Source: Acidobacteriota bacterium (GTDB lineage: Bacteria > Acidobacteriota > Vicinamibacteria > Vicinamibacterales > UBA2999). Taken from it: a stretch of 64,000 nucleotides of DNA. This document shows positions 10,141 through 38,021 of the stretch, piece by piece. The first letter of the stretch is position 1. Each line of letters opens with the position of its first letter. The stretch covers positions 62,001 through 126,000 of the forward strand of contig VFZN01000004.1 of assembly GCA_016871195.1 (NCBI GenBank). Direction: 5' to 3'. Below the pieces are notes generated by a model. The model was not told the origin of the DNA, ran no database searches, and saw only the letters and a program-made list of their open reading frames with translations. Position numbers and translations under genes: made by a program.

Positions 10141-11012
10141 ACGGGTCGCCGACCACGCCGCAACCGCCACGCGCAGGACGCAGGCGACTGCCCGCCGCAG
10201 CGCTGACGCTGGCCCTCGCGGTCATGGGGACGATGCGAGCGCCGATGGCGCAGGGGGGCTTGCCCCCGATGCCCGAGTGGATCGACGTGGCCGGGGCCAC
10301 CCTCGCCATGGGCGCGGGCACTGACCCCGAGGCCTACGACAACGAACGGTGGCCCTCGGCGACCGGCACGGGCCCGGTGCCCGTCGCGGGCTTCCTGCTC
10401 GCGCGCACCGAAACGACGGTGGCGCAGTTTGGCGCGTTTGCGGTGGCCACCGGCTGGCGCAGCGAGCCTCGTGCCCTGGCCGAGGCTCCCGACTTACCGG
10501 TGACCTTTGTCTCGTGGACTGATGCGGTGGCCTACACACGCTGGCTCGAGCGCGCCCTGCGCTCGACGCCATCCGCCCCGGCGGTCGTGCGCGACCGTCT
10601 GGCGGCGGGCTGGCACGTGCGGTTGCCGACCGAGGCGCAGTGGGAACTGGCCGCGCGTGCAACCGATGGGCGCCGCTATCCCTGGGGCAACGAGGCCCGC
10701 CCCGATCGGGCGACCTACAACACCACGGGACCGACACCGGTCGGGCAGCATCCGTGCCCCGAGTGCGTCCTGCCCCTCGCCGACATGAGCGGCAATGTCT
10801 GGGAATGGACGTCGAGTCCGTATCAGCCGTATCCGTTCACGGCGGCGGACGACCGGACGGGGCTCGAAGCCGATGCCCTGTGGGTCATGCGGGGCGGGCA
10901 CTTCGGCGACCCGCCGCGCCTGCTGCGGGCCACCGCCCGGGGGGCGGCCGAGCCCGGTGCGCGGCGGGCCTTCATCGGCTTCAGGGTCGCGCTGGTGCCC
11001 CCGGCTCGCTAG
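10137..11012 (+). CDS. formylglycine-generating-enzyme-like (SUMF1/FGE-sulfatase domain) exported protein lacking the catalytic cysteines
   Basis: 291 residues: a basic N-terminus and hydrophobic signal (about 17-38), then an FGE-sulfatase domain (about 45-288) with VRLPTEAQWELAAR (161-174), PWGNE (182-186), SGNVWEW (218-224) and a final GFRVAL. In genuine formylglycine-generating enzymes two cysteines precede the last motif. Here that region reads RGGHFGDPPRLLRATARG, and the only cysteines are C207 and C210, elsewhere. It is therefore probably a structural or ligand-binding relative, as in EgtB- or PvdO-type branches, not an activator of sulfatases. Start ATG overlaps the stop of the NqrB-like gene (ATGA), so the two proteins are made together and may act as a complex at the membrane. 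Confidence 0.85.
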   Translation: MNGSPTTPQPPRAGRRRLPAAALTLALAVMGTMRAPMAQGGLPPMPEWIDVAGATLAMGAGTDPEAYDNERWPSATGTGPVPVAGFLLARTETTVAQFGAFAVATGWRSEPRALAEAPDLPVTFVSWTDAVAYTRWLERALRSTPSAPAVVRDRLAAGWHVRLPTEAQWELAARATDGRRYPWGNEARPDRATYNTTGPTPVGQHPCPECVLPLADMSGNVWEWTSSPYQPYPFTAADDRTGLEADALWVMRGGHFGDPPRLLRATARGAAEPGARRAFIGFRVALVPPAR

Positions 11013-11018
11013 AGCCGG
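11001..11018 (+). terminator. hairpin at the end of the SUMF1-like gene
   Basis: CCGGCTC-GCTA-GAGCCGG, a perfect 7-bp stem, overlaps the stop codon. A second, competing stem (11015-11028) follows. There is no U-tract, so termination is only possible. Confidence 0.35.
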
Positions 11019-11066
11019 GAGCGCCCGGACATGCCACAATCGGACCGCGCGAGAAGAGGCGGCGCG

Positions 11067-14000
11067 CTATTGCGCCAGCTTCCTGAACGCCGCCTGCAGT
11101 CGGGCCAGCTCGGCCTGCAGATCACCGAAGCGGTCGTAGGCGTCCTTACCGACCTTCTGATCGGCCTGGCTCACCATGCGCTGCACATTGCCCAGCTGGT
11201 CAACAAGCATGCCCTGCGTGTAGATGCCGGGCGAGGTGGCCACCTGCGCCCACATCTGCTGCAGCGGGTGGTCGTACTTCGTCGTCGACGGACTCATGCC
11301 GGCCATCTGCGGCCCCACCGGCTTGACGCCGGCCTTCTGCATGGCGGCTTCGATGTCGGCCTGGAGCTTGCGTGCATCGCTGACCGCATCGCGCACGCTC
11401 AGCTGGAAGCGCACCTGTTCGCTGAGATCCGCATCGGTCACGCCATCGGCGGCAATGCGCGGGTCGCTCTTCACATCGAGCGGCCGCGTGGTGGTCTCGC
11501 CGCCGGCGGTCATCTTCACCGTATAGCGACCGGGGGGCACCATCGGGCCGCCCGCACCGCCGTTCGGGGCATTGGGTGCCCACGGGCCGGGATACCGCAT
11601 GTCCCACGTGAGGCGCTGCAGGCCCGCTTCAGCCCTGAGGCCCGCCGATGACCCGCCGCCGCGTCGGAAGCCGCCACGCATCTCCTGCCCGGCGCCGGCA
11701 CCACCACCCGAGAGCAGCGGGAAGCTGCGAATCACCTGACCACGCGCGTCCGTAATCTCGACCGTGGTGTCGGCCGGAGGGACCGACGCGAAGAACACAT
11801 CAATCTGTGCAGCGCCCGCCGGATATTCGGGGCCATCGGGTGAGGCCGGCAGCGCCGAGTTGCGCATCCGCATGGCCTCGCGCGGCGCAAACAGATACAC
11901 CGCCGGCACCGTTCCGGTGGCCTGTGACTGCGCCTCGTCAGCTGACGGGCCCGAGCCGCGGCGACCGCGGGCCGGAGCGGCATCACTCGGACGCGGTGTC
12001 CCGCTGACGAGCGAGGTCAGCTGCTGCAGCGGCGTCACGTTGTCCATGATCCACGCCGAGCGCCCCATCGTCGAAATGACGAGGTCATTGCGGTGCACGC
12101 GGATATCGGTGACGGGCGTCACGGGCAGGTTGCGCTGCAGCGACTGCCAGCGCGTGCCCGCGTCGAACGAGACGAACGCGCCGAACTCGGTGCCGGCGTA
12201 GAGCAGGCCCGACTGCTTCGGATCTTCGCGGACGACGCGCGTCGGATAGTCGACGGGAATGCCGTTCGTGCCGTCGGTCAGCAGTGTCCAGGTCGCGCCG
12301 TAGTCATCGGTGCGATAGATGTACGGCTTGAGATCGTGCTCGCGCATGAAGCGATAGGCGGCGACGTACGCGCGCCCCTTCGCATGCGGCGAGTCTTCGA
12401 TGTTCTGGATGCGCGCGCCGACGAGCCCCTTCGGCGTGACGTTCTTCCAGGTCTTGCCGTTGTCGCGCGAGACATGCACCGGACCGTCGTTGGCCCCGAC
12501 CCACAGCACGCCCTTTTCGTTACGGGCCTCGACCATCGCGTAGATCGTCGAGTAGACCTCTTCGCCCGTGACGTCGCGGGTGATGGGGTTACCGGAGACG
12601 ATCTGATACTGGGCTTCCTTCGCCGTCAGATCGGGACTGATGGTTTCCCACAGCATGCCCTCGTCTGTCGACCGGTGCAGCACGTGCGAGGCCTGATAGA
12701 TGATGCGCGAGTCGTGAGGTGAGACAAACACCACCGTCTGTCGCGGGAAGCGGTATTTGATGTCGTCGGGGTCGGTGCCGTAGCGGTTCTGCGGATAGAC
12801 CCAGTAGTGCTTCTCCTGGCCGGTCGTCGTGTTGTAGCGGCCCACTTCGCCTTTGCAGGCGCCCCACACAATCTTGCCGTCGGGCTTGGGCCAGATGGCG
12901 CCGGTCTCGCAGCCCGAGGCCTGCTGCCAGGTCTGCGCGGGATGCTCGAAGCCCCACGAGATCGGCGGCGTGCTCGGAATAATGATCGTGCTGTTGTCCT
13001 GCTGCGGCATGTAGAGCCGGTAGGGATACTGCTCGTCGACCGCCACCATGTAGTACTCGGCCGTCGGCTGGTTCAGAATCGACGACCAGCTGCGGCCGCC
13101 GTTGAGGCTGACATTGGCGCCGCCGTCATTCACCTGCAGGATGATCTCCGGGTGGTCAGGGTTGAACCACATGCCGTGGTTGTCACCGTGCGGCGTGTCG
13201 ACCGACGTGAAGGTCTTGCCATCATCGACACTCTTGTGGAGGCCGAGCTCGTTCACCCACACTTCGTGTTCATTCGTCGGGTTGACGGTGACGTAATGGA
13301 AGTAGAACGGCCGCGCGCGCAGGCGCTGGCTGTTGTTGACGAGCGTCCAGCTCTCGCCCGCGTCCGTCGACTTGTAGAGGCCGCCCTTCGGCCCTACCGC
13401 CTCGACCATGGCATACAGCACATTGGGATTGCTGCGCGCGATATCGATGTCGATCTTCCCGATGAGATCGTCGGGCAGCCCGCGCGTGATCTTCTTCCAC
13501 GTCTCGCCGCCGTCGGCCGACTTGTAGATGCCGCCCTCCGAGGCCGGTCCGCCGCTGATGATGTCCCAGCCTTTGCGGAACCCGCGATACATCGCCGCAT
13601 AGACGATGTCGGGGTTGTCGGGGTTGATTTCGATGTCGCGTCCCCCGGTCTCGTTGTTCACAAACAGCGTGCGCTTCCACGTCTTGCCGCCATCGGTGGT
13701 CTTGAAGATGCCGCGCTCATCATTGGGGCCGAACGGGGAGCCGAGCGCTGCCAGCCACACCGTATTCGTGGTGTACGGATGCACCTTGATGCCGCCGATC
13801 TGGCCCGACTCCTTGAGGCCCATGAACTGCCATGTCTTGCCGGCATCCGTCGATTTGTAGACGCCACGGCCGATGATGACATTCGAGCGGATGGCCGCGC
13901 TGCCGGTGCCGACCCATACGTGGTTCGGATTCGAGGGGGCCACATCGATCGACCCGATCGAGCCGGTGGCGATCTGGCCGTCCGAGACCGGCACCCACGT

Positions 14001-25972: not shown

Positions 25973-25995
<23 letters not shown>
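25651..25995 (+). CDS. small LuxR/GerE-type DNA-binding regulator
   Basis: 114 residues from a GTG start. Residues about 37-95 are a GerE helix-turn-helix: [20 protein letters not shown], then [20 protein letters not shown] with the recognition helix. There is no receiver, PAS or ligand domain; the first 35 residues are His/Gly-rich and probably disordered, and the C-terminus is basic. Such orphan LuxR proteins act as transcription factors alone or with a separate sensor. It is divergent from the membrane HTH gene, 80 nt away, and overlaps the end of glnS by 23 nt tail to tail. Confidence 0.78.
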
Positions 25996-27721
<1,726 letters not shown>

Positions 27722-28592: not shown

Positions 28593-29804
28593 TCAGCCGA
28601 CCATCCACAGCCAGCCGCCAGACAGCACGAGCGTCGCCAGCGTCACCGGTGCCCCGATGCGCAGGTGCATCCGCCAGTCGTTCCGCACGTCTGCCCGTCG
28701 GGCCTCTTCAACCACGATGAGGTTGGCGATGCTGCCGACCAGCAGCAGATTGCCCGCCAGCGTCGAGGCCAGGGCGAGGATGGGGCCTGCCGGCACATGC
28801 GTGGCTGCCGGCAGCAGCAGCATCACGGCGGGCACATTCGACACCAGATTCGACAGCAGGACGGTCGTGGCAAACAGGGGCACAGGCTGCGCCAGATCGA
28901 GGCCGAGCTGCCGGGCCGAGGCCAGTAGGGCCGCCGGGGCACCGGTCTGCTGCATCGCGTGGTTCACGATGAACAGTCCGCTGAACAGCACCAGCAGATG
29001 CCAGTCGACCAGCGCCACCATCTCGCGCGACGCCAGGTCACGCGACACGAGCAGCACGCCCGCCGCGGCGAGCGCCACCAGCGCGCGCGGCCAGTCGGTC
29101 AGCAGGAAGGCGGCCATCACCAGGGCCACCACCACGAGTCCCTTGATGGTGGGCCCTCTGCGACAGACGGGGACCTCCGGATCATCACCTGCGGTGATGC
29201 ACGGGTAGCGCGTGCGCCAGTGCTGGTGCACGATGGCCCAGACCGCCCCGAGTCCTGCCAGGGCCGGCACCCCGGTGGTCCACAGATATCCGGTGAACGG
29301 CAGGCCCAGCACTTCGCCGACCAGCATGTTCTGCGGATTCCCGATGAGCGTGGCTGCCGACCCGGCGTTCGACGCGCAGGCGAGGGCCAGGAGGAACGGA
29401 CGAGCATCAAGCTGCTGTTGACGGCACAGCGTGATCACCGCCGGGGTCATCGCCAGGCACACGATGTCGTTGACGAGGATGGCCGACAGCAGGCCCGCCG
29501 CTCCGATGACCAGGGCCAGCAGGTACGCAGGGGAGGGGCGACGGCGGGCCAGCCGATCGACGATCGCGCCGTAGAACCCGCTGAGGCGGAACTGCGCCGA
29601 CACCACCATGAGCCCGAAGAGCAGCGCCAGCGTGGGCGCATCGATGGCCTCCACGGCCCCGTCCATCGTGATGCGCCCGGTGGCCAGCAGCACAATCGCC
29701 CCGAGCAGCGCGATGCCCGAGCGGTCGAGTGCGAGACCGGGCCACCCGCCGAGCATCATGCCCGCATAGGTCAGTGCAAAGACCGCCGTGACAAGCGGGT
29801 CCAT
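28593..29804 (-). CDS. SLC13/ArsB-type anion transporter
   Basis: 403 residues, ten to eleven membrane segments. It has the two-fold ion-transporter layout, with the NPQN-containing loop SAATLIGNPQNMLVGEV in the first half and the matching SNLVSNVPAVMLLL in the second half. This places it with ArsB/NhaD/DASS carriers of dicarboxylates, sulfate, arsenite or sodium. It is the last gene of a five-gene minus-strand operon, 13 nt after the M20-like gene. It could move the product of that exported protein, but nothing in the sequence names the ion. Confidence 0.85.
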   Translation of the reverse strand: MDPLVTAVFALTYAGMMLGGWPGLALDRSGIALLGAIVLLATGRITMDGAVEAIDAPTLALLFGLMVVSAQFRLSGFYGAIVDRLARRRPSPAYLLALVIGAAGLLSAILVNDIVCLAMTPAVITLCRQQQLDARPFLLALACASNAGSAATLIGNPQNMLVGEVLGLPFTGYLWTTGVPALAGLGAVWAIVHQHWRTRYPCITAGDDPEVPVCRRGPTIKGLVVVALVMAAFLLTDWPRALVALAAAGVLLVSRDLASREMVALVDWHLLVLFSGLFIVNHAMQQTGAPAALLASARQLGLDLAQPVPLFATTVLLSNLVSNVPAVMLLLPAATHVPAGPILALASTLAGNLLLVGSIANLIVVEEARRADVRNDWRMHLRIGAPVTLATLVLSGGWLWMVG

Positions 29805-29817
29805 CCGATCAGGCCCC

Positions 29818-31182
29818 TCAGGCGAGGGCCCAGCGTTCCGACGCGAGCATCACGACGGCCACGAGCCGCACGAGGTCATCGATGTCCACCCACTCGTCGG
29901 GACCATAGAAGCCGCCGGCCAGCGAGCCGATCCCGAAGGCCGGCACGCCTGACAGGCGAATCGGATAGCGGATATCGCCGGCGTAGTGCGTCGGATACGA
30001 CGCGGGCTCGCGCCCGGTCACCTCGGCAATGGCCGTGCGCAGCGTGCGGCAGGCCGGGTCGTTCCAGTCGACCGCACCGTAGTTGGCCCCGAGACCTTCG
30101 CGAGCGACGATGACGGTGAAGGCCTGTGGGCCGCGCCGGCGCTCCTCGGCCAGTCGAGAGGCCTCCTGCTGCGCGGCGCTGACCAGATCGCCGAAGGCCC
30201 GCTGCCGGTCGTCAAAGAGAACGCGGATGCGCACGCGCGCCTTGTCAGGCACCGAGCCGACGCGATCGCCGGCGACCAGCTCGCCCACATTCGTCTCGCA
30301 CCCGCGCAGCGCGGTCTGCTGCAGTCGCGGCACGAGTGCCATGGCGAGCGCGAGGGCATCGCCACCCTCGGCGTAGGGGGCGCTGTCGGGGCTGCCGATT
30401 TCGCGCGGGGCGGCGCGCCAGCCGGTGATGTCGATGCGGAGGTCGACGACCCCGCGAACAATGTGCTTGATGTCGACAAGGCCGCGGCCCGTCTCGGCCG
30501 GATGCACGTAGAGCACCTGCGACAGATCGCGCAGGCGCTCGAAGGTCGGCAGGCTGCCGCGGCTGCCGCCGCCCTTGCCGTGCAGACTCAGCACCAGCGG
30601 ACTCGGGCGGCCCTCGGCCTGCAGTACGGCGGCGGCCACGGCCATGGCCGCAACCCCACCTTTGTCATCGGCGGCGCCCAGCCCATAGAGGCGCCCGTTG
30701 CTGATGCGCGGCTGCAGCGGCGCCGAGGTCCAGCCGGCACCGGCTTTCTCGGTGTCGATGTGCGCAAACAGCGCCACCCGTGAACTGCGCTGCGCGGCTC
30801 GCGCCATGAGGTTCGTCGCCGGGGCCGGATACGGGACGGCCGGGGCCATGTAGTCGGGATGCGACACATACCGCGTCGGGTCATCAACCACGAGATCGGG
30901 CGTGTAGCCGCGTGTGCGCAGATAGTCCGCCATCATGCGCTGACCCTCGGCTGCCGATTCCCCGAGCGGACTGCTGACGGTCACCAGCCGCGACAGCAAC
31001 TGCACGAGCTCGTCGCGTCGGGCCCCGGCGAGGCGCAGCGCCTCCTGGGACGACAGCGGTGCCTGCGCGGCGCGTATGCCGTCGGTGTCGAAGGCGGCGC
31101 CGGCGACGAGGCCGGCCGCCCCGGCGGCCGACTGCGACAGAAAATGCCGGCGTGTCGGCGGCGGCGTCGGGCGTGTCGACAT
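29818..31182 (-). CDS. Tat-exported M20-family peptidase-like protein lacking key catalytic residues
   Basis: 454 residues with a twin-arginine signal (PTRRHFLSQSAAGAAGL). The M20 fold is clear: FAHIDTEKAGAGW (H141, D143) and GRLYGLGAADDKGGVAAM (D172). At the site where M20 enzymes have the catalytic base and metal ligand as Glu-Glu, the sequence reads SLHGKGGGSRGS (200-210). The late His that normally precedes DE is replaced in FYGPDEWVD. The protein is intact otherwise and sits in a tight operon, so it may be a binding protein or use altered chemistry. Its nearest relatives would be DapE/ArgE/carboxypeptidase G2-type enzymes. Confidence 0.82.
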   Translation of the reverse strand: MSTRPTPPPTRRHFLSQSAAGAAGLVAGAAFDTDGIRAAQAPLSSQEALRLAGARRDELVQLLSRLVTVSSPLGESAAEGQRMMADYLRTRGYTPDLVVDDPTRYVSHPDYMAPAVPYPAPATNLMARAAQRSSRVALFAHIDTEKAGAGWTSAPLQPRISNGRLYGLGAADDKGGVAAMAVAAAVLQAEGRPSPLVLSLHGKGGGSRGSLPTFERLRDLSQVLYVHPAETGRGLVDIKHIVRGVVDLRIDITGWRAAPREIGSPDSAPYAEGGDALALAMALVPRLQQTALRGCETNVGELVAGDRVGSVPDKARVRIRVLFDDRQRAFGDLVSAAQQEASRLAEERRRGPQAFTVIVAREGLGANYGAVDWNDPACRTLRTAIAEVTGREPASYPTHYAGDIRYPIRLSGVPAFGIGSLAGGFYGPDEWVDIDDLVRLVAVVMLASERWALA

Positions 31183-31194
31183 GCGAACCTCGTG

Positions 31195-32178
31195 CTACTT
31201 CGACAGCAGCGCCATCAGCGCCCAGCTCGTCGTCGAAATTTTTTGTGCGTAACTTTTCTTGCCGGCCTCGCGCATGGTTTCGGTCCAGCTGCCGTCGGGC
31301 AGCTGCTGCGCCGCCAGCCAGCGGCGTCCGCGATCGAGCGCATCGCGCAGCTCTTCGGGCCGATAGGTCGAGCGCGCCAGGCGCGGGTCTGACACGTACT
31401 GCTGCAGGGCCAGCACGGCAATCGCCGAGTGGAAGACGGTGGCCGGCGCATCGGCGCTCGGGCCCCAGCCCCCATCTGCCCCCTGCGCACGGCGCAGGAT
31501 GCTCAGCGAAACGGCGCGCTGCCGGTCGGCCATCACATCCGAGGTGACATTCATCGCCAGCAGCACACCCGCCGCGTCGGCGGTGTGCACCACTTCGTAG
31601 GTGCGCAGCCACCGATCCGTCTGCGCCACCGCAAAGTCGTCTGGCTCACGGCCGGCGGCAATCAGCGTCGATCGCGCCAGCCACGTCGCCAGCGCTGGAC
31701 CGTAGGTGACGGGTGTGGCGTCGGTGTGGGCCGGGTAGGGCGACCACGATCCGTCTGCCTGCTGGTCGCCGATGATGAGTGTGGCCGCCTGCACCAGCGC
31801 ACGCGCGGGCGCGGCGTCGCGTTCGCCCGCCATCGCGAGGGCTGCCGTATACGACACCCGGCCCAGCGGACGGTTGGCTTCGATCTGCACCTTGGTCGTG
31901 GCCCAGGTGTCAGGGGCCCGCAGGAAGGCGAGGCTTGTCTCGAGGGACGGGCCCACGTCATATCCGCGATGGGAGGCCATCAGCAGCGCGCGCGCCCCGT
32001 CCCCGTTGTTGTGGCACGAGTAGCAGCTGTTGGTCGTGTGCCACTTGGGCACTTCCTTCGACAGATAGGTGACCGCCCGGGCCTCGGGCGAATCGGCCGG
32101 GGCCGGCTGCGCGGCACCGGGCAACGGCGACAGCACGACAAGGGCCAGCAGGAAGGTGAGGAACCGCATACGGCTCAT
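31195..32178 (-). CDS. exported squalene-cyclase-like (alpha/alpha toroid) protein with a CxxCH haem motif
   Basis: 327 residues with a signal peptide (1-23). Immediately after the mature start is a haem c attachment motif, CYSCH (52-56). The remainder is a prenyltransferase/squalene-cyclase-like helical barrel with QW-type repeats: QQADGSWSPY, QGADGGWGPS and QLPDGSWTET. No DxDD-type cyclase motif is seen, so terpene cyclisation is unlikely. Similar domains occur in exported proteins of planctomycetes and acidobacteria, sometimes with cytochrome motifs. It starts one nucleotide after the stop of the ABC permease gene, so they are translated together. Confidence 0.78.
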   Translation of the reverse strand: MSRMRFLTFLLALVVLSPLPGAAQPAPADSPEARAVTYLSKEVPKWHTTNSCYSCHNNGDGARALLMASHRGYDVGPSLETSLAFLRAPDTWATTKVQIEANRPLGRVSYTAALAMAGERDAAPARALVQAATLIIGDQQADGSWSPYPAHTDATPVTYGPALATWLARSTLIAAGREPDDFAVAQTDRWLRTYEVVHTADAAGVLLAMNVTSDVMADRQRAVSLSILRRAQGADGGWGPSADAPATVFHSAIAVLALQQYVSDPRLARSTYRPEELRDALDRGRRWLAAQQLPDGSWTETMREAGKKSYAQKISTTSWALMALLSK

Positions 32179-32179
32179 G

Positions 32180-34921
32180 CTACCGCACCCTCCAGCCCTC
32201 GGGCAGTGCCTGAGGGGGTCGGGTCACGACACCGTGCGCGCCCAGCCGATCGCGCAGTGCTGCGGCGATCGTGTCAGCATCGGCCCGCGGAGCCACAATG
32301 CACCAGTAGCGCGGCCCCTCGTGCAGCGGAAAGGCACGCGCAAAGATGGTCTCGGTGACGAGCAGACCCGGCGGCAGCACGGCTGCCGCTGCAGGCACAC
32401 TGCCCGCAGTGGCCACGAGGGCCTCGGCATCGCGCGGGTCGAGTGACCGGGGCTGCGCTGGCGCAGGCACACCCAGCAGACGTCGCCACCGCGTCGGCCA
32501 TGCCCGCACCGCCTCGGCCGGCAGCTCGTTGAGATCGAGGGCCGTGGCCAGCGACGCCGGCACACTGAACACCGGCACGCTGGCCTCGCGGATGCGAACG
32601 GAGGCGACCATCGCACGCTCCCAGGGGGGATGCTCGTCGAGCCCGAGCGCGGCGCGCGCATCACGGCTCGACGGGGTCAGCACCACGGCACGCGGCACGT
32701 CGACGCGCAGCAGCACCGGCCGGTCAGCCGCGATCGACTCGGATAGAACTCCGCGAGTCAGCGGCCACACGGCCCACGCGCACGTGACCACCAGCGCGCC
32801 CACGACGCCCGCCCGCAGCCCCCGCGTGGTGCGTGTGTGTCGGTCTCGACGGTTGTCGCGTGCGTGCGCGACGCCGAAGGCGAGCGGCGGCTCGCCCGAT
32901 GTGGCCGCCAGTCGCGCCTCGGCACGCACGACCAGCCACAGCACGCTGCCCGACAGCACGGCGGCCGCTGCGAGGACGAGCGCATCGAGGCCGTCGAGTG
33001 TCCGGGCCGCCCACAGCCGCGCGGCGGCTCCGATCGCCGTGGCTGCGACACTCGCCAGCGCCACAGGTATACGCGCTCGCCGCAGACGATCGTCGGCAAT
33101 CTCGCGGCGTGTGAGTCCGTTCATCGAGAAGATCGCTGCGCGCCTCGCCTGCGTTGCACCGGGGCGCCGCAGGGCCAGCCCGAGCCAGGCCACGAGCAGG
33201 AGGGCCAGCATCCACACCGGCGCGCTCGTGCGCAGCAGACCGATCAGGTCGGCCCGCAACCGTGCGGAGGCGTCGAGGGCCGGGTGGCGGAGGCGCACGC
33301 GCGCGGTGACAGCGTCACGCACGGCCGCGGCCACCAGGTCGGCGTCACCGAGGGCGAAGCGGATGGACGAGAGCGCGCCTGGCGAGGCCGACAGCAGCTG
33401 CTGGCCTCGCTCGAGGGGCAGCAGCACCCTCGGTGCCGTATTCCACTGACGCCAGTAGGCCTCGTCGTCAGGGCGGATCGGCGCGTCAGGATCGCGCCAG
33501 GCGGCAGGCCAGGCGCGAGGCGAGTCGACGGCCGAGAGCACGGGCAGGTCGGGCAACAGCGAGCGGTCGCCGCCGATGCGCATCATCGGGACGGTGCCCG
33601 CGACGTCAAAGGTGCCGTGTCGTCGCGTCAGGCCGCCTTCGTCCTGCCAGACGGGCCAGGACATCTGCACCTGGTCACCGGTGGAGACCTGCAGGTCGGC
33701 GGCGGCCCACTCGTTGAGCCACACGGCACCGTCGGGGGCGGGCGTCGCCGGCACGCGGGCACCGGACGTGCGGGGCCGGGGGGCGCGCTGGGACGGACGG
33801 GCGGGCGTCAGGTCGGTGACCTGGACGCGACCGACGCGAACGCCGCGGCGCCCGACATTGACCTGCAGCGCGCTGCGGAGCAGGGCATCGTCGGTGCCCG
33901 CCGACCCGTCGCCCGGCCGCGCCGGTCCCGAGGGTAGCGACAGCGCGAGATACGCATCAGGGTCGATGGCCGTGATCGTCGAGGCGGCGACGACACGATC
34001 ACCGGCACGCAGCGTCACGCCCACGCTGCTCAGTGCGGGCACCGCCGGACGCCCGGCACGAGACAGCGCCGTCATCACGCGCGTGGCCAGCGCGGGATCG
34101 AAGACGCCGCCGAGGGCATCGAGCGCCATCACGTTGTCGCCCGGCACCCGCCGGATGCGCACCCCGTGATCCGGCAGTGCCGCAGCCGCCAGCCAGGCCC
34201 GCAGGATCACCTCATCCGCCGGAGGCCCGCCATCGTCATGTCGGGCATCGGCCGAGAAGCGCAGCAGCACCGTATTGATGCGGCCGGCGAGCTCGAGCTG
34301 CCGCTGCATCCACGCGAGCGACACATACACGATGCGGGGCTCGTCGGGTTCCACCTCCACGGTGACGCTGTCGCCGGGGCCCGGGGCACGCACGGCGGCG
34401 ATGCGGACGTCGATGGGCTGCGCGCGCAGCCCGGCGGCCAGGGCGCTCTGCTGGGGCACGTCCGACGGCACCGAAAGGCTGAGCCGCAATCGTTCTCCCG
34501 CCTGGGCACCGAGGGCGCGGGCTGCGGCCTCGGTGATCACGGCCGTGCCTGCACCGGGTGCTTCCCTGTCCCGTGCATGGAAGGTCCAGAACAGGTCGTC
34601 GACCGCATGCACACGCACGGGCGTGTGCGTCGACGTGCCGTCGCGTGTGGCGACGCCCTCAACCACGAGCAGGCCGACCGCCTCGGTGACCGTACCGCCC
34701 GCGGCCACCTTGAGTCCCGCAGGCAGGCGTGCGCTGAACGTGCCCTGAGTCGTGATGACCGATTCGGTACGACCGACGGGCATGCGCACACGCTGCACCC
34801 GTGCCTGCCACGCGTGCCACGGCCACACCACAGCGGCCACCAGCAGCAGCGCCGACAGCAGCAGCGACGGGGGCACCGACGCGCAGCGATCACGCAGCGC
34901 CGCAACGACGGGTACCGTCAT
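32180..34921 (-). CDS. large FtsX/MacB-like ABC transporter permease
   Basis: 913 residues. One membrane segment at the N-terminus (about 18-40), a very large extracytoplasmic region (about 45-610), then three to four membrane segments (about 620-790) and a second exported domain at the C-terminus. The cytoplasmic loop with NGLTRREIADDRLRRARIPV corresponds to the FtsX coupling loop. The organisation is that of LolC/MacB/BceB-type permeases but much longer and strongly diverged. The ATG at 34921 overlaps the stop of the ATPase gene by 4 nt (ATGA). It should pair with that ATPase, which is itself degenerate. Confidence 0.72.
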   Translation of the reverse strand: MTVPVVAALRDRCASVPPSLLLSALLLVAAVVWPWHAWQARVQRVRMPVGRTESVITTQGTFSARLPAGLKVAAGGTVTEAVGLLVVEGVATRDGTSTHTPVRVHAVDDLFWTFHARDREAPGAGTAVITEAAARALGAQAGERLRLSLSVPSDVPQQSALAAGLRAQPIDVRIAAVRAPGPGDSVTVEVEPDEPRIVYVSLAWMQRQLELAGRINTVLLRFSADARHDDGGPPADEVILRAWLAAAALPDHGVRIRRVPGDNVMALDALGGVFDPALATRVMTALSRAGRPAVPALSSVGVTLRAGDRVVAASTITAIDPDAYLALSLPSGPARPGDGSAGTDDALLRSALQVNVGRRGVRVGRVQVTDLTPARPSQRAPRPRTSGARVPATPAPDGAVWLNEWAAADLQVSTGDQVQMSWPVWQDEGGLTRRHGTFDVAGTVPMMRIGGDRSLLPDLPVLSAVDSPRAWPAAWRDPDAPIRPDDEAYWRQWNTAPRVLLPLERGQQLLSASPGALSSIRFALGDADLVAAAVRDAVTARVRLRHPALDASARLRADLIGLLRTSAPVWMLALLLVAWLGLALRRPGATQARRAAIFSMNGLTRREIADDRLRRARIPVALASVAATAIGAAARLWAARTLDGLDALVLAAAAVLSGSVLWLVVRAEARLAATSGEPPLAFGVAHARDNRRDRHTRTTRGLRAGVVGALVVTCAWAVWPLTRGVLSESIAADRPVLLRVDVPRAVVLTPSSRDARAALGLDEHPPWERAMVASVRIREASVPVFSVPASLATALDLNELPAEAVRAWPTRWRRLLGVPAPAQPRSLDPRDAEALVATAGSVPAAAAVLPPGLLVTETIFARAFPLHEGPRYWCIVAPRADADTIAAALRDRLGAHGVVTRPPQALPEGWRVR

Positions 34922-35589
34922 CGCACCCACTCCGTCAGTTCGCCGTCGCGCAGGGCCAGCACCGCGTCGCAGGCGGCCCCCTCGGCCGGGGTGTCGCAGA
35001 GCATCAGCAGCGCCGCGCCCGAGCGGTGCTGCAGCCGCAGCAGCACGTCGGTCCACGACCGCTGTTCATCGGGGGCGAGGCCGCGGAGGGCGGTATCGGC
35101 CACGATCAGTCGAGGCAGGCGCACCGCGGCACGCGCCAGAGCCACGAGGCGCTGATCGAGCAGAGCCAACTGCGAAGGGCGCGCATCCTGCACGTGGTCG
35201 AGCGACAGTGCCGCCAGCAGCGCACGGCCCTGGTCACGCGCTTCGAGGTCGGGGACGGGACCCGACAGGGGAAGGCAGACGTTGTCGAGCACGGTCAGCG
35301 TGGGACACAGCAGGGGAGCATCGGTGACGACGCCAATGTTGCGCCTGCGCACGCGCGCCCGCTCATCGGTGTCGAGCGCCGACAGGTCGCAGCCGTCGAC
35401 CAGCACCGGGCCTGCATCGGGCACCAGCAGGCCGGCAGCGAGCAGGCCGAGTGTGGTCTTGCCCGACGCCGGGGCCCCGACCACGGCGAGGCGGGCCCCC
35501 GCGGCAATTTCGAGAGAAATCGACCGGAGCGGTGCGACATCGCCTGTCGGCGTCGCGAATGTTTTCGACACCGCCCGCAGCGTCAGCAC
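34918..35589 (-). CDS. degenerate ABC-transporter ATPase-like protein (Walker A only)
   Basis: 223 residues, GTG start with AAGGGAG (35596-35602) six nt upstream. It aligns with LolD/MacB-type ATPases throughout. Walker A is intact (GAPASGKTT, 38-46). The Q-loop Gln is Thr (T89), the LSGGQ signature is LALLD (141-145), Walker B ends in ADT instead of ADE (T166), and the H-loop His is Cys (C198). With four of five catalytic elements lost, it should bind nucleotide but hydrolyse it poorly or not at all. Yet the frame is intact and it is coupled by a 4-nt overlap to its permease, so it is not an obvious pseudogene. It opens the five-gene operon running down to 28593. Confidence 0.8.
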   Translation of the reverse strand: MLTLRAVSKTFATPTGDVAPLRSISLEIAAGARLAVVGAPASGKTTLGLLAAGLLVPDAGPVLVDGCDLSALDTDERARVRRRNIGVVTDAPLLCPTLTVLDNVCLPLSGPVPDLEARDQGRALLAALSLDHVQDARPSQLALLDQRLVALARAAVRLPRLIVADTALRGLAPDEQRSWTDVLLRLQHRSGAALLMLCDTPAEGAACDAVLALRDGELTEWVR

Positions 35590-35691: not shown

Positions 35692-37263
35692 GTGCCATCC
35701 GCGTTCCGCACACGACTTCGCCAGCACGCCGTTCCTGTCGAGGGACGGACATGGACCTACGTGCCGTACGACCAACTCTCGGCACACACCGGTGCATGGA
35801 CCCGACGGCCCACCCGCGAGGTGGGGCTCGTGTTTGTGGAAACCACCGCCAAGGGCCGACGTCGTCCGTATCACAAGCAGAAGCTCGCCCTGATTCTCGC
35901 CAACCAGCGGCAGTTCGCGCTCGAGCAGGCAGCGCGCGGCGTGGCCATCGACTACGTGATGGCCGACACCGATTACGACGTGGCCCTCGCCGGTCCGCTG
36001 GCGAGGCACGGCACCCTCGAGTGCCAGCGCCCTGCGGAGCGTGAGCTGCGTCAGACGCTCGCCCCCCTCGTCGCCGCTGGCCGCATCGACGAACACCCGC
36101 ACGAAGGCTGGCTCACCACGCGCGCGCACTTCGAGGCCAGCCACAATGGGCCGCCCTATCGGATGGATGCGTTCTATCGCCACGTGCGCCGGGCGACCGG
36201 CATCCTCATGGACGGGGCGAAGCCTGCAGGTGGCAAGTGGTCGTTCGACGCCGAGAACCGCAAGGCATGGAAGGGCACACCGCCGGCGCCCGAGCCTCCG
36301 ACGTTTGTCGCTGATGACGTCACGGAAGAAGTGGGGCAACTGGTGCGCGATCGGTTTGCCGATCATCCCGGCCGGCTCGACCTCGCACACCTGCCGGCGA
36401 CGGATGCCGATGCGGCGCAGCTCTGGCAGTGGGCGAGACAGTCGTGCCTGCCGCAGTTCGGTCCGTATGAAGACGCGATGTCGGTGCGCTCACGCGGTCT
36501 GTTTCACACGCGCATTGCGCCGCTGCTCAACCTGCAGCGTGTGCTGCCGCTCGCCGTGGTGCGCGACGTCGAGGCCCTGCCGATTCCCCTCCAGAGCCGG
36601 GAAGGGTTCATCAGGCAGATTCTCGGGTGGCGCGAATTCGTCAGGCACGTGCACGAGGCGACCGACGGCTGCCGCACCGGCATCGGGTCCGAGGCCATCG
36701 CGGGCACCACACCACTGCCCGCCGCCTACTGGGGCACCGTGTCGGGCCTGACGTGCCTCGACCGTGTCGTCGCTGATGTCTGGGAGGAAGGCTGGAGTCA
36801 TCACATCACGCGGCTGATGGTGCTGGCCAACCTGGCCTCGCTGCTCGAAATTTCGCCGCGCGAACTGACCGACTGGTTCTGGGTCGCGTTCATCGACGCC
36901 TTCGACTGGGTGGTCGAGCCGAATGTGCTCGGCATGGGCACCTATGCACTGGGGCAGATGATGACCACCAAGCCCTACATCTCAGGGGCCGCCTACATCG
37001 ATCGCATGAGCGACTACTGCGGGCACTGCGCATTCGACCCGAAGACCACGTGCCCGGTGACGCCGCTCTACTGGGCCTATCTCGCCCGTCACCGCGAGGC
37101 CCTGCGCGACAACATCCGCGTCGCCATGCCCCTGCGCTCCCTCGACAAGCGCGCCGACGCCCGGCGTCAGGCCGATGCGCGGGTGTTTGCGGTGGTGTCG
37201 GAGGCCCTGGCCGAGGGACGGCCGGTGCAGCCTGCCGATGTCGTCCGGGCACTCGCCGACTAG
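35692..37263 (+). CDS. FeS-containing photolyase/cryptochrome-related protein (PhrB type)
   Basis: 523 residues if the GTG at 35692 is the start; another in-frame GTG at 35668 is possible. The N-terminal region (TWTYVPYDQLS, then YHKQKLALILANQR) is the antenna-binding alpha/beta domain of FeS-BCP proteins. The C-terminal helical domain binds FAD and carries the four cysteines of the [4Fe-4S] cluster: one in GLTCLDRVV, two in SDYCGHCAFD and one in KTTCPVTPLYW. Members repair (6-4) photoproducts or act as light sensors. The gene's 3' end overlaps the opposite-strand DUF1295 gene by 4 nt. The frame is open far upstream, but that part is not protein-like and lies opposite the ABC ATPase gene. Confidence 0.9.
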   Translation: MPSAFRTRLRQHAVPVEGRTWTYVPYDQLSAHTGAWTRRPTREVGLVFVETTAKGRRRPYHKQKLALILANQRQFALEQAARGVAIDYVMADTDYDVALAGPLARHGTLECQRPAERELRQTLAPLVAAGRIDEHPHEGWLTTRAHFEASHNGPPYRMDAFYRHVRRATGILMDGAKPAGGKWSFDAENRKAWKGTPPAPEPPTFVADDVTEEVGQLVRDRFADHPGRLDLAHLPATDADAAQLWQWARQSCLPQFGPYEDAMSVRSRGLFHTRIAPLLNLQRVLPLAVVRDVEALPIPLQSREGFIRQILGWREFVRHVHEATDGCRTGIGSEAIAGTTPLPAAYWGTVSGLTCLDRVVADVWEEGWSHHITRLMVLANLASLLEISPRELTDWFWVAFIDAFDWVVEPNVLGMGTYALGQMMTTKPYISGAAYIDRMSDYCGHCAFDPKTTCPVTPLYWAYLARHREALRDNIRVAMPLRSLDKRADARRQADARVFAVVSEALAEGRPVQPADVVRALAD

Positions 37264-38021
37264 CGACGAGGCGGCCACGGCGCAAACGCCGATGTCGTGG
37301 CGATATAGCGGGCGTAGTCAGGGCGCCGGTCGGTGATGTCGCGTTCCAGCAGCGTGACGCCCGAGACGCGCATCAGCAGGAAGGTCATCGCGGCCGGCCC
37401 CACCAGCGTCATCCACCCGCCGGGGGCGGCGAGCGCCAGCGCCCCGAATCCCCACCAGACCACGGCATCGCCGAAGTAATTCGGATGGCGCGAGTACCGC
37501 CACAGGCCGGTGTCGAGCACGCGTCCCCGGTTGGCGGGGTTGGCGCGGAAGCTGGTGAGCTGCCGATCGGCGACCGTCTCGCAGGCGAGGCCTCCGAGGA
37601 CCAGCGCGAGGCCCAGCAGATCGGTCAGTACCGGAAAGGCGGCGCCGCTGGTCAGGGCCGCATGCACGGGCCAGCCCACGCCCCACGCAATCACGGCCTG
37701 CAGCACGAACACCTGCAGATAGCTGCGCCACCACCAGCGACGGCCGTGCTGCGCGCGCCAGGCGGCATAGCGAGGGTCTTCACCGTGTCCGATGTTGCGG
37801 CGGCCCAGATGCAGCGCCAGGCGTGCGGCCCACAACGCCACCAGCCCCGTGACCGTCAGCGCGCGAGGCGAGACCGTCTCGAGCGACTGCAGCGTCACGA
37901 GGGCGGCCAGCAGGAAGGCCGGCCCCCAGCAGATATCCACAATCGACGCGTCGCGCAGCGCAAGCGACAGCAGCCACAGCACCGTGAAGGCCGCCAGCAG
38001 CGCGAGCAGCGGTGCGGTCAT
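37260..38021 (-). CDS. DUF1295/steroid 5-alpha-reductase-like membrane protein
   Basis: 253 residues, about six to seven membrane segments. It carries the family's C-terminal motif around NRGRVLDTGLWRYSRHPNYF and GDAVVWWGFG, where the HPNYFGD residues form the NADPH/substrate site of the steroid-reductase-like fold. The physiological substrate in bacteria is unknown. It follows the cytochrome c gene by 6 nt and belongs to the sulfite-dehydrogenase operon. Confidence 0.88.
   Translation of the reverse strand: MTAPLLALLAAFTVLWLLSLALRDASIVDICWGPAFLLAALVTLQSLETVSPRALTVTGLVALWAARLALHLGRRNIGHGEDPRYAAWRAQHGRRWWWRSYLQVFVLQAVIAWGVGWPVHAALTSGAAFPVLTDLLGLALVLGGLACETVADRQLTSFRANPANRGRVLDTGLWRYSRHPNYFGDAVVWWGFGALALAAPGGWMTLVGPAAMTFLLMRVSGVTLLERDITDRRPDYARYIATTSAFAPWPPRR

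Follow-up and report, generated by a model that had tools for sequence, protein, structure and literature searches.

The five-gene run at positions 35589-28593 of the window, by which we mean the whole stretch of 64,000 nucleotides analyzed here (bases 62001-126000 of contig C4, from a genome of 3.08 Mb that is 98% complete), is probably a compacted remnant region. It would combine a decayed or converted exporter pair with a retooled M20-fold protein and an independent SLC13-type transporter, and would not encode an assembled machine. All five frames are open and lie on the minus strand in the order ATPase, permease, haem/toroid protein (HEM), M20-like protein, and SLC13-like transporter. The genes, their relevant motifs and domains, and the neighbors that define the syntenic block are as follows.

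37260-38021, minus strand: DUF1295 protein, opposite edge of the syntenic block (domain match and synteny)
34918-35589, minus strand: relative of ABC ATPases (LolD/YbbA class) with its motor motifs lost; 223 aa, GTG start
35455-35478, minus strand: Walker A of the ATPase, kept (GAPASGKT; alignment, residues 38-45)
35155-35169, minus strand: ATPase signature position, LALLD instead of LSGGE (alignment, residues 141-145)
35092-35094, minus strand: position of the ATPase catalytic Glu, here Thr (alignment, residue 166)
32180-34921, minus strand: remnant of a large FtsX/MacB-like permease; 913 aa, ATG start (homology and alignments)
33287-34786, minus strand: first extracytoplasmic domain of the permease (MacB_PCD-like in the relative G004), selectively conserved (50 of 93 conserved columns)
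32852-33286, minus strand: eroded FtsX transmembrane core of the permease (14 of 64 conserved columns)
31195-32178, minus strand: HEM, exported single c-haem (alpha/alpha) toroid protein; 327 aa
32011-32025, minus strand: CYSCH haem-binding motif of HEM (sequence)
29818-31182, minus strand: M20-fold protein with a Tat-type signal and a replaced active site; 454 aa
30547-30582, minus strand: invariant HGKGGGSRGSLP block replacing the catalytic Glu pair (8 of 8 members)
29905-29907, minus strand: Tyr426, replacing the last metal-binding His (alignment, 8 of 8 members)
28593-29804, minus strand: SLC13/ArsB-type transporter (CitMHS); 403 aa
27728-28561, minus strand: CarboxypepD_reg plus cupin protein, inherited neighbor (domain match and synteny)
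25973-27721, minus strand: glutaminyl-tRNA synthetase-type gene (GlnRS), inherited neighbor (domain match and synteny)

The frames and their spacing agree with the first-pass annotation: the ATPase and permease genes overlap by 4 nt, and the gaps that follow measure 1, 12, and 13 nt. For the permease, a longer mechanical ORF extends to 35056 and overlaps the ATPase gene. Close spacing alone is not unusual in the window, where gaps of 20 nt or less separate 14 of the 31 codirectional neighbor pairs (approximate gene calls). Scanning the operon ends for promoters and terminators gave nothing convincing, and no RNA families were found within the window. The five genes may be co-transcribed; there is no sign of joint action.

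The order of the genes was compared with that in two genomes of the same genus. On the minus strand the window reads SorA-type (sulfite-dehydrogenase-like) protein, cytochrome c, DUF1295, ATPase, permease, HEM, M20, SLC13, cupin, and GlnRS. In G003 (contig C73), DUF1295, three enzyme genes, the ATPase, and the permease are followed by approximately 13 kb of other genes and then by M20 (75% identity), SLC13 (64%), cupin, and GlnRS. In G004 (contig C114), the block runs from GlnRS, cupin, SLC13 (64%), five other genes, and HEM (56%) across approximately 18 kb to the permease, ATPase, three enzyme genes, DUF1295, cytochrome c, and SorA-type genes. All five genes of the run sit at inherited positions, and what separates them in the relatives is missing from the window. 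This matching order, with intervening genes in both relatives, indicates that the run arose by compaction of an ancestral stretch. Homology searches did not find HEM in G003 or M20 in G004, so that no one relative has all five genes, and no other locus examined carries all five in compact form. At 3.1 Mb versus approximately 3.9 to 6.1 Mb, the window genome is smaller than the other four genus genomes compared, and its GlnRS is 77 to 79% identical to that of each of them. The CarboxypepD_reg plus cupin gene adjoins GlnRS in the window, in G003 and G004, and in other genomes of the family. The slot between DUF1295 and the ATPase, taken by the three enzyme genes in G003 and G004, contains in the window a gene for a photolyase-related DPRP protein (PF04244, 158 bits; 35821-37263, plus strand).

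In the g21 loci, M20 adjoins DUF1295 in three of four cases and lies one gene off in the fourth, which is another sign that the neighbors of M20 are positional. Identities between the window and one of these loci (L083) are 70% for M20, 65% for the SorA-type protein, 61% for DUF1295, and 50% for the cytochrome. A neighborhood search for the ATPase-permease-haem trio, proposed in the first-pass annotation, recovered it in one further genome, G002, and in no others. There, a 3.8-kb contig of an assembly that is 6% contaminated carries a truncated ATPase, a 943-aa permease, and HEM next to one another. Homology searches found neither the permease nor HEM in G001, and among the 20 loci examined with an intact permease, most of them spanning about 20 kb, HEM occurs in only one, approximately 18 kb off.

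The ATPase matches ABC_tran with 66 bits, and its best models are LolD (105 bits, cut-off 308) and YbbA. Alignment with 14 relatives showed that it retains Walker A, in a stretch reading GAPASGKTT, and has lost the Q-loop, LSGGE, the catalytic Glu, the D-loop Asp, and the H-loop His. Every one of these motifs is intact in all 14 relatives, and the window protein keeps 39 of the 91 columns conserved among them, in agreement with the first-pass label of pseudo-ABC-ATPase. The fragment in G002 has lost the signature, D-loop, and H-loop His, and carries Asp in place of the catalytic Glu.

Homologues of the permease were found in 34 of 59 genomes, the window genome included, mostly as frames of approximately 1,100 to 1,200 aa versus 913 aa here. 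The intact relatives match the FtsX, MacB_PCD, LolCE, and ADOP (TIGR03434) models. The window protein has no Pfam match of its own, and on sequence grounds it is FtsX-like solely via these relatives. MacB_PCD itself is recognized only in the G004 permease and not in the window protein, which does contain the homologous region. A permease query of the named genome collection gave no relative (12 pattern matches, none confirmed).

Conservation was scored at columns in which a single residue is shared by 90% or more of 20 intact permeases. The window protein keeps 50 of 93 such columns in the first extracytoplasmic domain versus 33 of 194 elsewhere (Fisher, 3.6e-10). The latter break down into 5 of 20 for TM1, 14 of 64 for the FtsX core, 2 of 14 for the next TM, 12 of 56 for the second extracytoplasmic part, and none of 40 for the C-terminal three-helix bundle, which is absent (all gaps). 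With the same column totals, the G002 permease keeps 64 in the first domain versus 55 of 194 elsewhere (Fisher, 1.5e-10), namely, 8 in TM1, 17 in the FtsX core, 7 in the next TM, 17 in the second extracytoplasmic part, and 6 in the bundle. Between the intact permeases of G003 and locus L070, identity is 77% in TM1, 54% in the FtsX core, and 60% in the second half, and 40% and 58% in the two parts of the first extracytoplasmic domain, the latter part being conserved as well as the TM parts. In these two intact relatives conservation is thus mostly higher in the TM parts, a pattern that is reversed in both decayed copies.

The G003 and G004 permeases are 87% identical, whereas the window permease shares 39% with that of G002 and 36% with that of G003. 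For a common origin of the two decayed permeases, they pair as long branches in the tree and share 14 of 79 replacements versus 7.4 expected (p 0.010), a modest excess. Against it, GlnRS weakly groups G002 with G003 and G004, in a tree that is not clear-cut as to species order and was read without its G001 row (wrong reading frame, 10-unit branch). Both decayed copies have a gap of approximately 70 to 100 residues near the helices at G003 residues 708-763, with different edges.

An analysis of dN/dS for each gene had also been proposed. Neutrality (omega=1) was rejected on the window branch for the permease (2dlnL 195.7), the whole ATPase (36.5), M20 (55.4), and SLC13 (204.4), as well as for HEM (17.4 with G002 and 53.0 with the four-sequence set). 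It was not rejected for the 86 codons of the ATPase C terminus that are present in G002 as well (2.5). The fits used our own codon model on star trees, with the synonymous distance at its bound on the window branch in most of them; since synonymous change is saturated there, the value of omega is unreliable and serves only as a test against omega=1, on a branch that also spans time preceding the decay. The free-omega fits of SLC13 and DUF1295 were not interpreted on one short branch, which ran to the upper bound (20). Nonsynonymous change on the window branch (t x omega) was approximately 1.9 for the permease, 2.0 for the ATPase, 0.7 for SLC13, and 0.3 for GlnRS. In 30 runs of neutral drift to 36% identity over 848 permease codons, a mean of 13.4 stops and a minimum of 7 accumulated versus none observed, and for the ATPase a mean of 3.5 and a minimum of none; these runs begin at full identity and contain no indels, which makes them a yardstick only.

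The ancestral setting of the pair can be seen in the intact permease loci of the order, which are stretches of approximately 9 to 20 kb, some ending at contig edges. A full series of AMP-ligase-like, ALDH-like, GT4 (glycosyltransferase), ATPase, and permease genes occurs in 12 of the 20; three have the ATPase with only part of the series, and five have no such adjoining ATPase (a match in L073, with 30% identity and on the other strand, was scored as absent). An example of the series is L059:3911-12114, with equivalents in L055, L056, L057, L060, L062-L064, L067, L068, L070, and L071; its permease is of the FtsX type with approximately 1,140 aa and its ATPase of the LolD class. The label AMP-ligase reflects a sub-threshold match (24 bits versus 29.9). 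The ALDH-like reductase is present in G003 and G004, is represented in G001 by a 28% partial match only, and was not found in the window genome or in G002. Assignment of this gene to LuxC (PF05893) was rejected, with no match in G003 or G004; Pfam assigns Aldedh. The product of the series may be an exported glycolipid.

HEM combines a single CxxCH and an export signal (judged by eye) with QW-like repeats and SQHop_cyclase matches, in keeping with its earlier description as a haem-motif squalene-cyclase-like protein; the DxDD cyclase motif is absent from the window protein, nine homologues, and five long relatives. At E <= 0.001, HEM is found in 17 of 59 genomes, the window genome included. The CxxCH is present in seven of nine aligned close homologues and missing in G005 and G002, and the G002 protein also shows no visible signal peptide at its start, which suggests that the trio may still be decaying. 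All haem-bearing members have only the proximal His in common, with no common second His or Met. AlphaFold2 predicts an (alpha/alpha) toroid (pLDDT 83.8), for which Foldseek gave as best PDB matches the single-domain squalene-hopene cyclases 8paj and 8pak (TM approximately 0.57), with similar TM-scores against GH105 and prenyltransferase toroids. Proteins with ankyrin repeats, CxxCH, and SQHop are encoded at L034:8927-10675, L031:628-2535, L035:9143-11407, L033:197-2074, and L032:2331-4223, and one of these five also has PSCyt1.

The M20-like protein matches Pfam M20 with 68 bits and M20 structures in Foldseek with an E of 8e-21 (model pLDDT 73); its Tat-type signal was read by eye from RRHFL. 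That it has no catalytic Glu pair had been noticed from the start. The pair is replaced by HGKGGG, and SLHGKGGGSRGSLP is invariant at this site in all eight aligned members, which span three families; His141 and Asp172 are kept in all eight. Mapped on 3pfo, the block falls at the TEEE stretch, model confidence being low at site loops 204-206 and 397-409. The protein is 67 to 73% identical to members from the same family, where the gene occurs in 6 of 43 genomes, its own included (E <= 1e-20). In a phylum sample it occurs in 4 of 297 genomes (E <= 1e-60), which may be an undercount given that five candidates were scored per genome. The exact DNA pattern of the block was found in 5 of 396 phylum genomes, all known carriers, and its reversed control gave 0 among the matches listed. 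When the M20 alignment was run against the named genome collection, five loci were recovered, each labelled as an Acidobacteria or Acidobacteriota MAG, and plasmids gave none. In G066 the M20-like gene lies between two large permease genes (L109:5756-8527 and 10707-13301) that look ADOP-like by eye. Relatives with full catalytic motifs, which the first-pass annotation had named as evidence against reuse, exist for the ATPase and the permease and not for M20. These features suggest that the M20-like protein is retooled, not decaying, with a predicted new site. Neither this variant nor the ATPase-permease-HEM trio was met in a literature search at the level of abstracts, with subscription journals outside its range.

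The SLC13 protein matches CitMHS with 192 bits over residues 26-349, as expected from its first assignment to SLC13/ArsB, and nothing in it is visibly degenerate. Its orthologues adjoin the cupin and GlnRS genes in G003 and G004, and it is an ordinary transporter, presumably an independent one.

In the history that we favor, the five-gene run would have arisen by loss of intervening genes from the longer ancestral region. The ATPase and permease descend from an intact LolD/MacB-class ABC pair that presumably exported an acyl or glycosyl product of the AMP-ligase-like, ALDH-like, and GT4 genes, and transport would have lapsed with the loss of these biosynthesis genes. Judging from conservation alone, what persists of the permease may be an extracytoplasmic domain, anchored in the membrane, for binding or scaffolding, and the Walker-A-only ATPase may be a non-hydrolyzing partner or a fading remnant. 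Rather than a cyclase, HEM may be an exported haem toroid to which a ligand or redox partner binds, and the M20 protein may be periplasmic, its M20 fold carrying a new site for a ligand or for catalysis. A further account, which we hold tentatively as a real possibility, places two repurposings side by side. One would be an exported Acidobacteriota M20-fold family whose glycine/Lys/Arg loop (HGKGGGSRGSLP) binds an anionic ligand or performs new chemistry; the other, a pseudo-transporter with inverted conservation, its ABC pair, now without motor or pore, being kept by selection as an extracytoplasmic receptor or scaffold anchored in the membrane.

Three other explanations were weighed. That the ATPase and permease are pseudogenes in progress, without retained function, appears unlikely: motor motifs and the C-terminal bundle are lost, nonsynonymous change on the window branch is approximately 2 to 6 times that of the neighbors, and the ATPase C-terminal piece fails to reject omega=1, but the 913-codon permease frame is intact and rejects omega=1, and the domain-specific retention recurs in G002. 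It is very improbable that the five genes form one co-evolved envelope system in which enzyme folds are reused for sensing, binding, or gated transport, as the first-pass annotation had it. The tight spacing, the adjacency of ATPase, permease, and HEM in G002 too, and the presence of three proteins without canonical catalytic features, all in open frames as originally noted, are what this idea has in its favor. Against it stand synteny, which accounts for the order as inherited from a longer region, and the distribution of HEM and M20, which is independent of the ATPase-permease pair and extends to places away from it; the G002 HEM has lost its haem motif, and SLC13 is part of an SLC13-cupin-GlnRS run. 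We see hardly any chance that the pair still functions as an ABC machine whose motor is non-canonical, e.g., by forming a heterodimer, as its degenerate half, with an intact ATPase encoded elsewhere in the genome. Walker A is kept, the window genome has 55 ABC_tran matches, and partner sharing is conceivable given the five relatives whose permease has no adjoining ATPase; heterodimers in which one site is degenerate are known (PMC12038006). The eroded FtsX core and the absent C-terminal helix bundle of the permease nevertheless speak against it.

The favored reading, a compacted remnant, implies that a compact "operon of odd enzymes" can come from genome reduction, which is a warning for guilt-by-proximity reasoning. 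Two changes of function are also opened to testing: in the permease, conservation has moved from the pore to an extracytoplasmic domain, and in the M20 family, a replacement of the active-site loop has become fixed.

Compared with known systems, the pair resembles ABC pairs of the LolD/YbbA/MacB class in the top models of the ATPase (LolD and YbbA) and in the FtsX, MacB_PCD, LolCE, and ADOP matches of the permease's intact relatives, and differs from them in the lost motor motifs, the eroded core, and the missing bundle. HEM shares the (alpha/alpha) toroid and QW-like repeats of single-domain squalene-hopene cyclases but lacks DxDD, with an N-terminal CxxCH instead in seven of nine homologues. 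The same haem-toroid unit occurs in the ankyrin, haem, and SQHop proteins of related genomes (five of five long relatives scanned), whereas in the window it stands alone, without ankyrin repeats. The M20-like protein agrees with M20 metallopeptidases and deacylases (3pfo, carboxypeptidase G2, and DapE) in its M20 match, fold, and the positions of His141 and Asp172, and departs from them in having an invariant HGKGGG for the Glu pair and Tyr for the last His in all eight members. The SLC13 protein is like other SLC13/ArsB (CitMHS) transporters over residues 26-349, with no notable difference.
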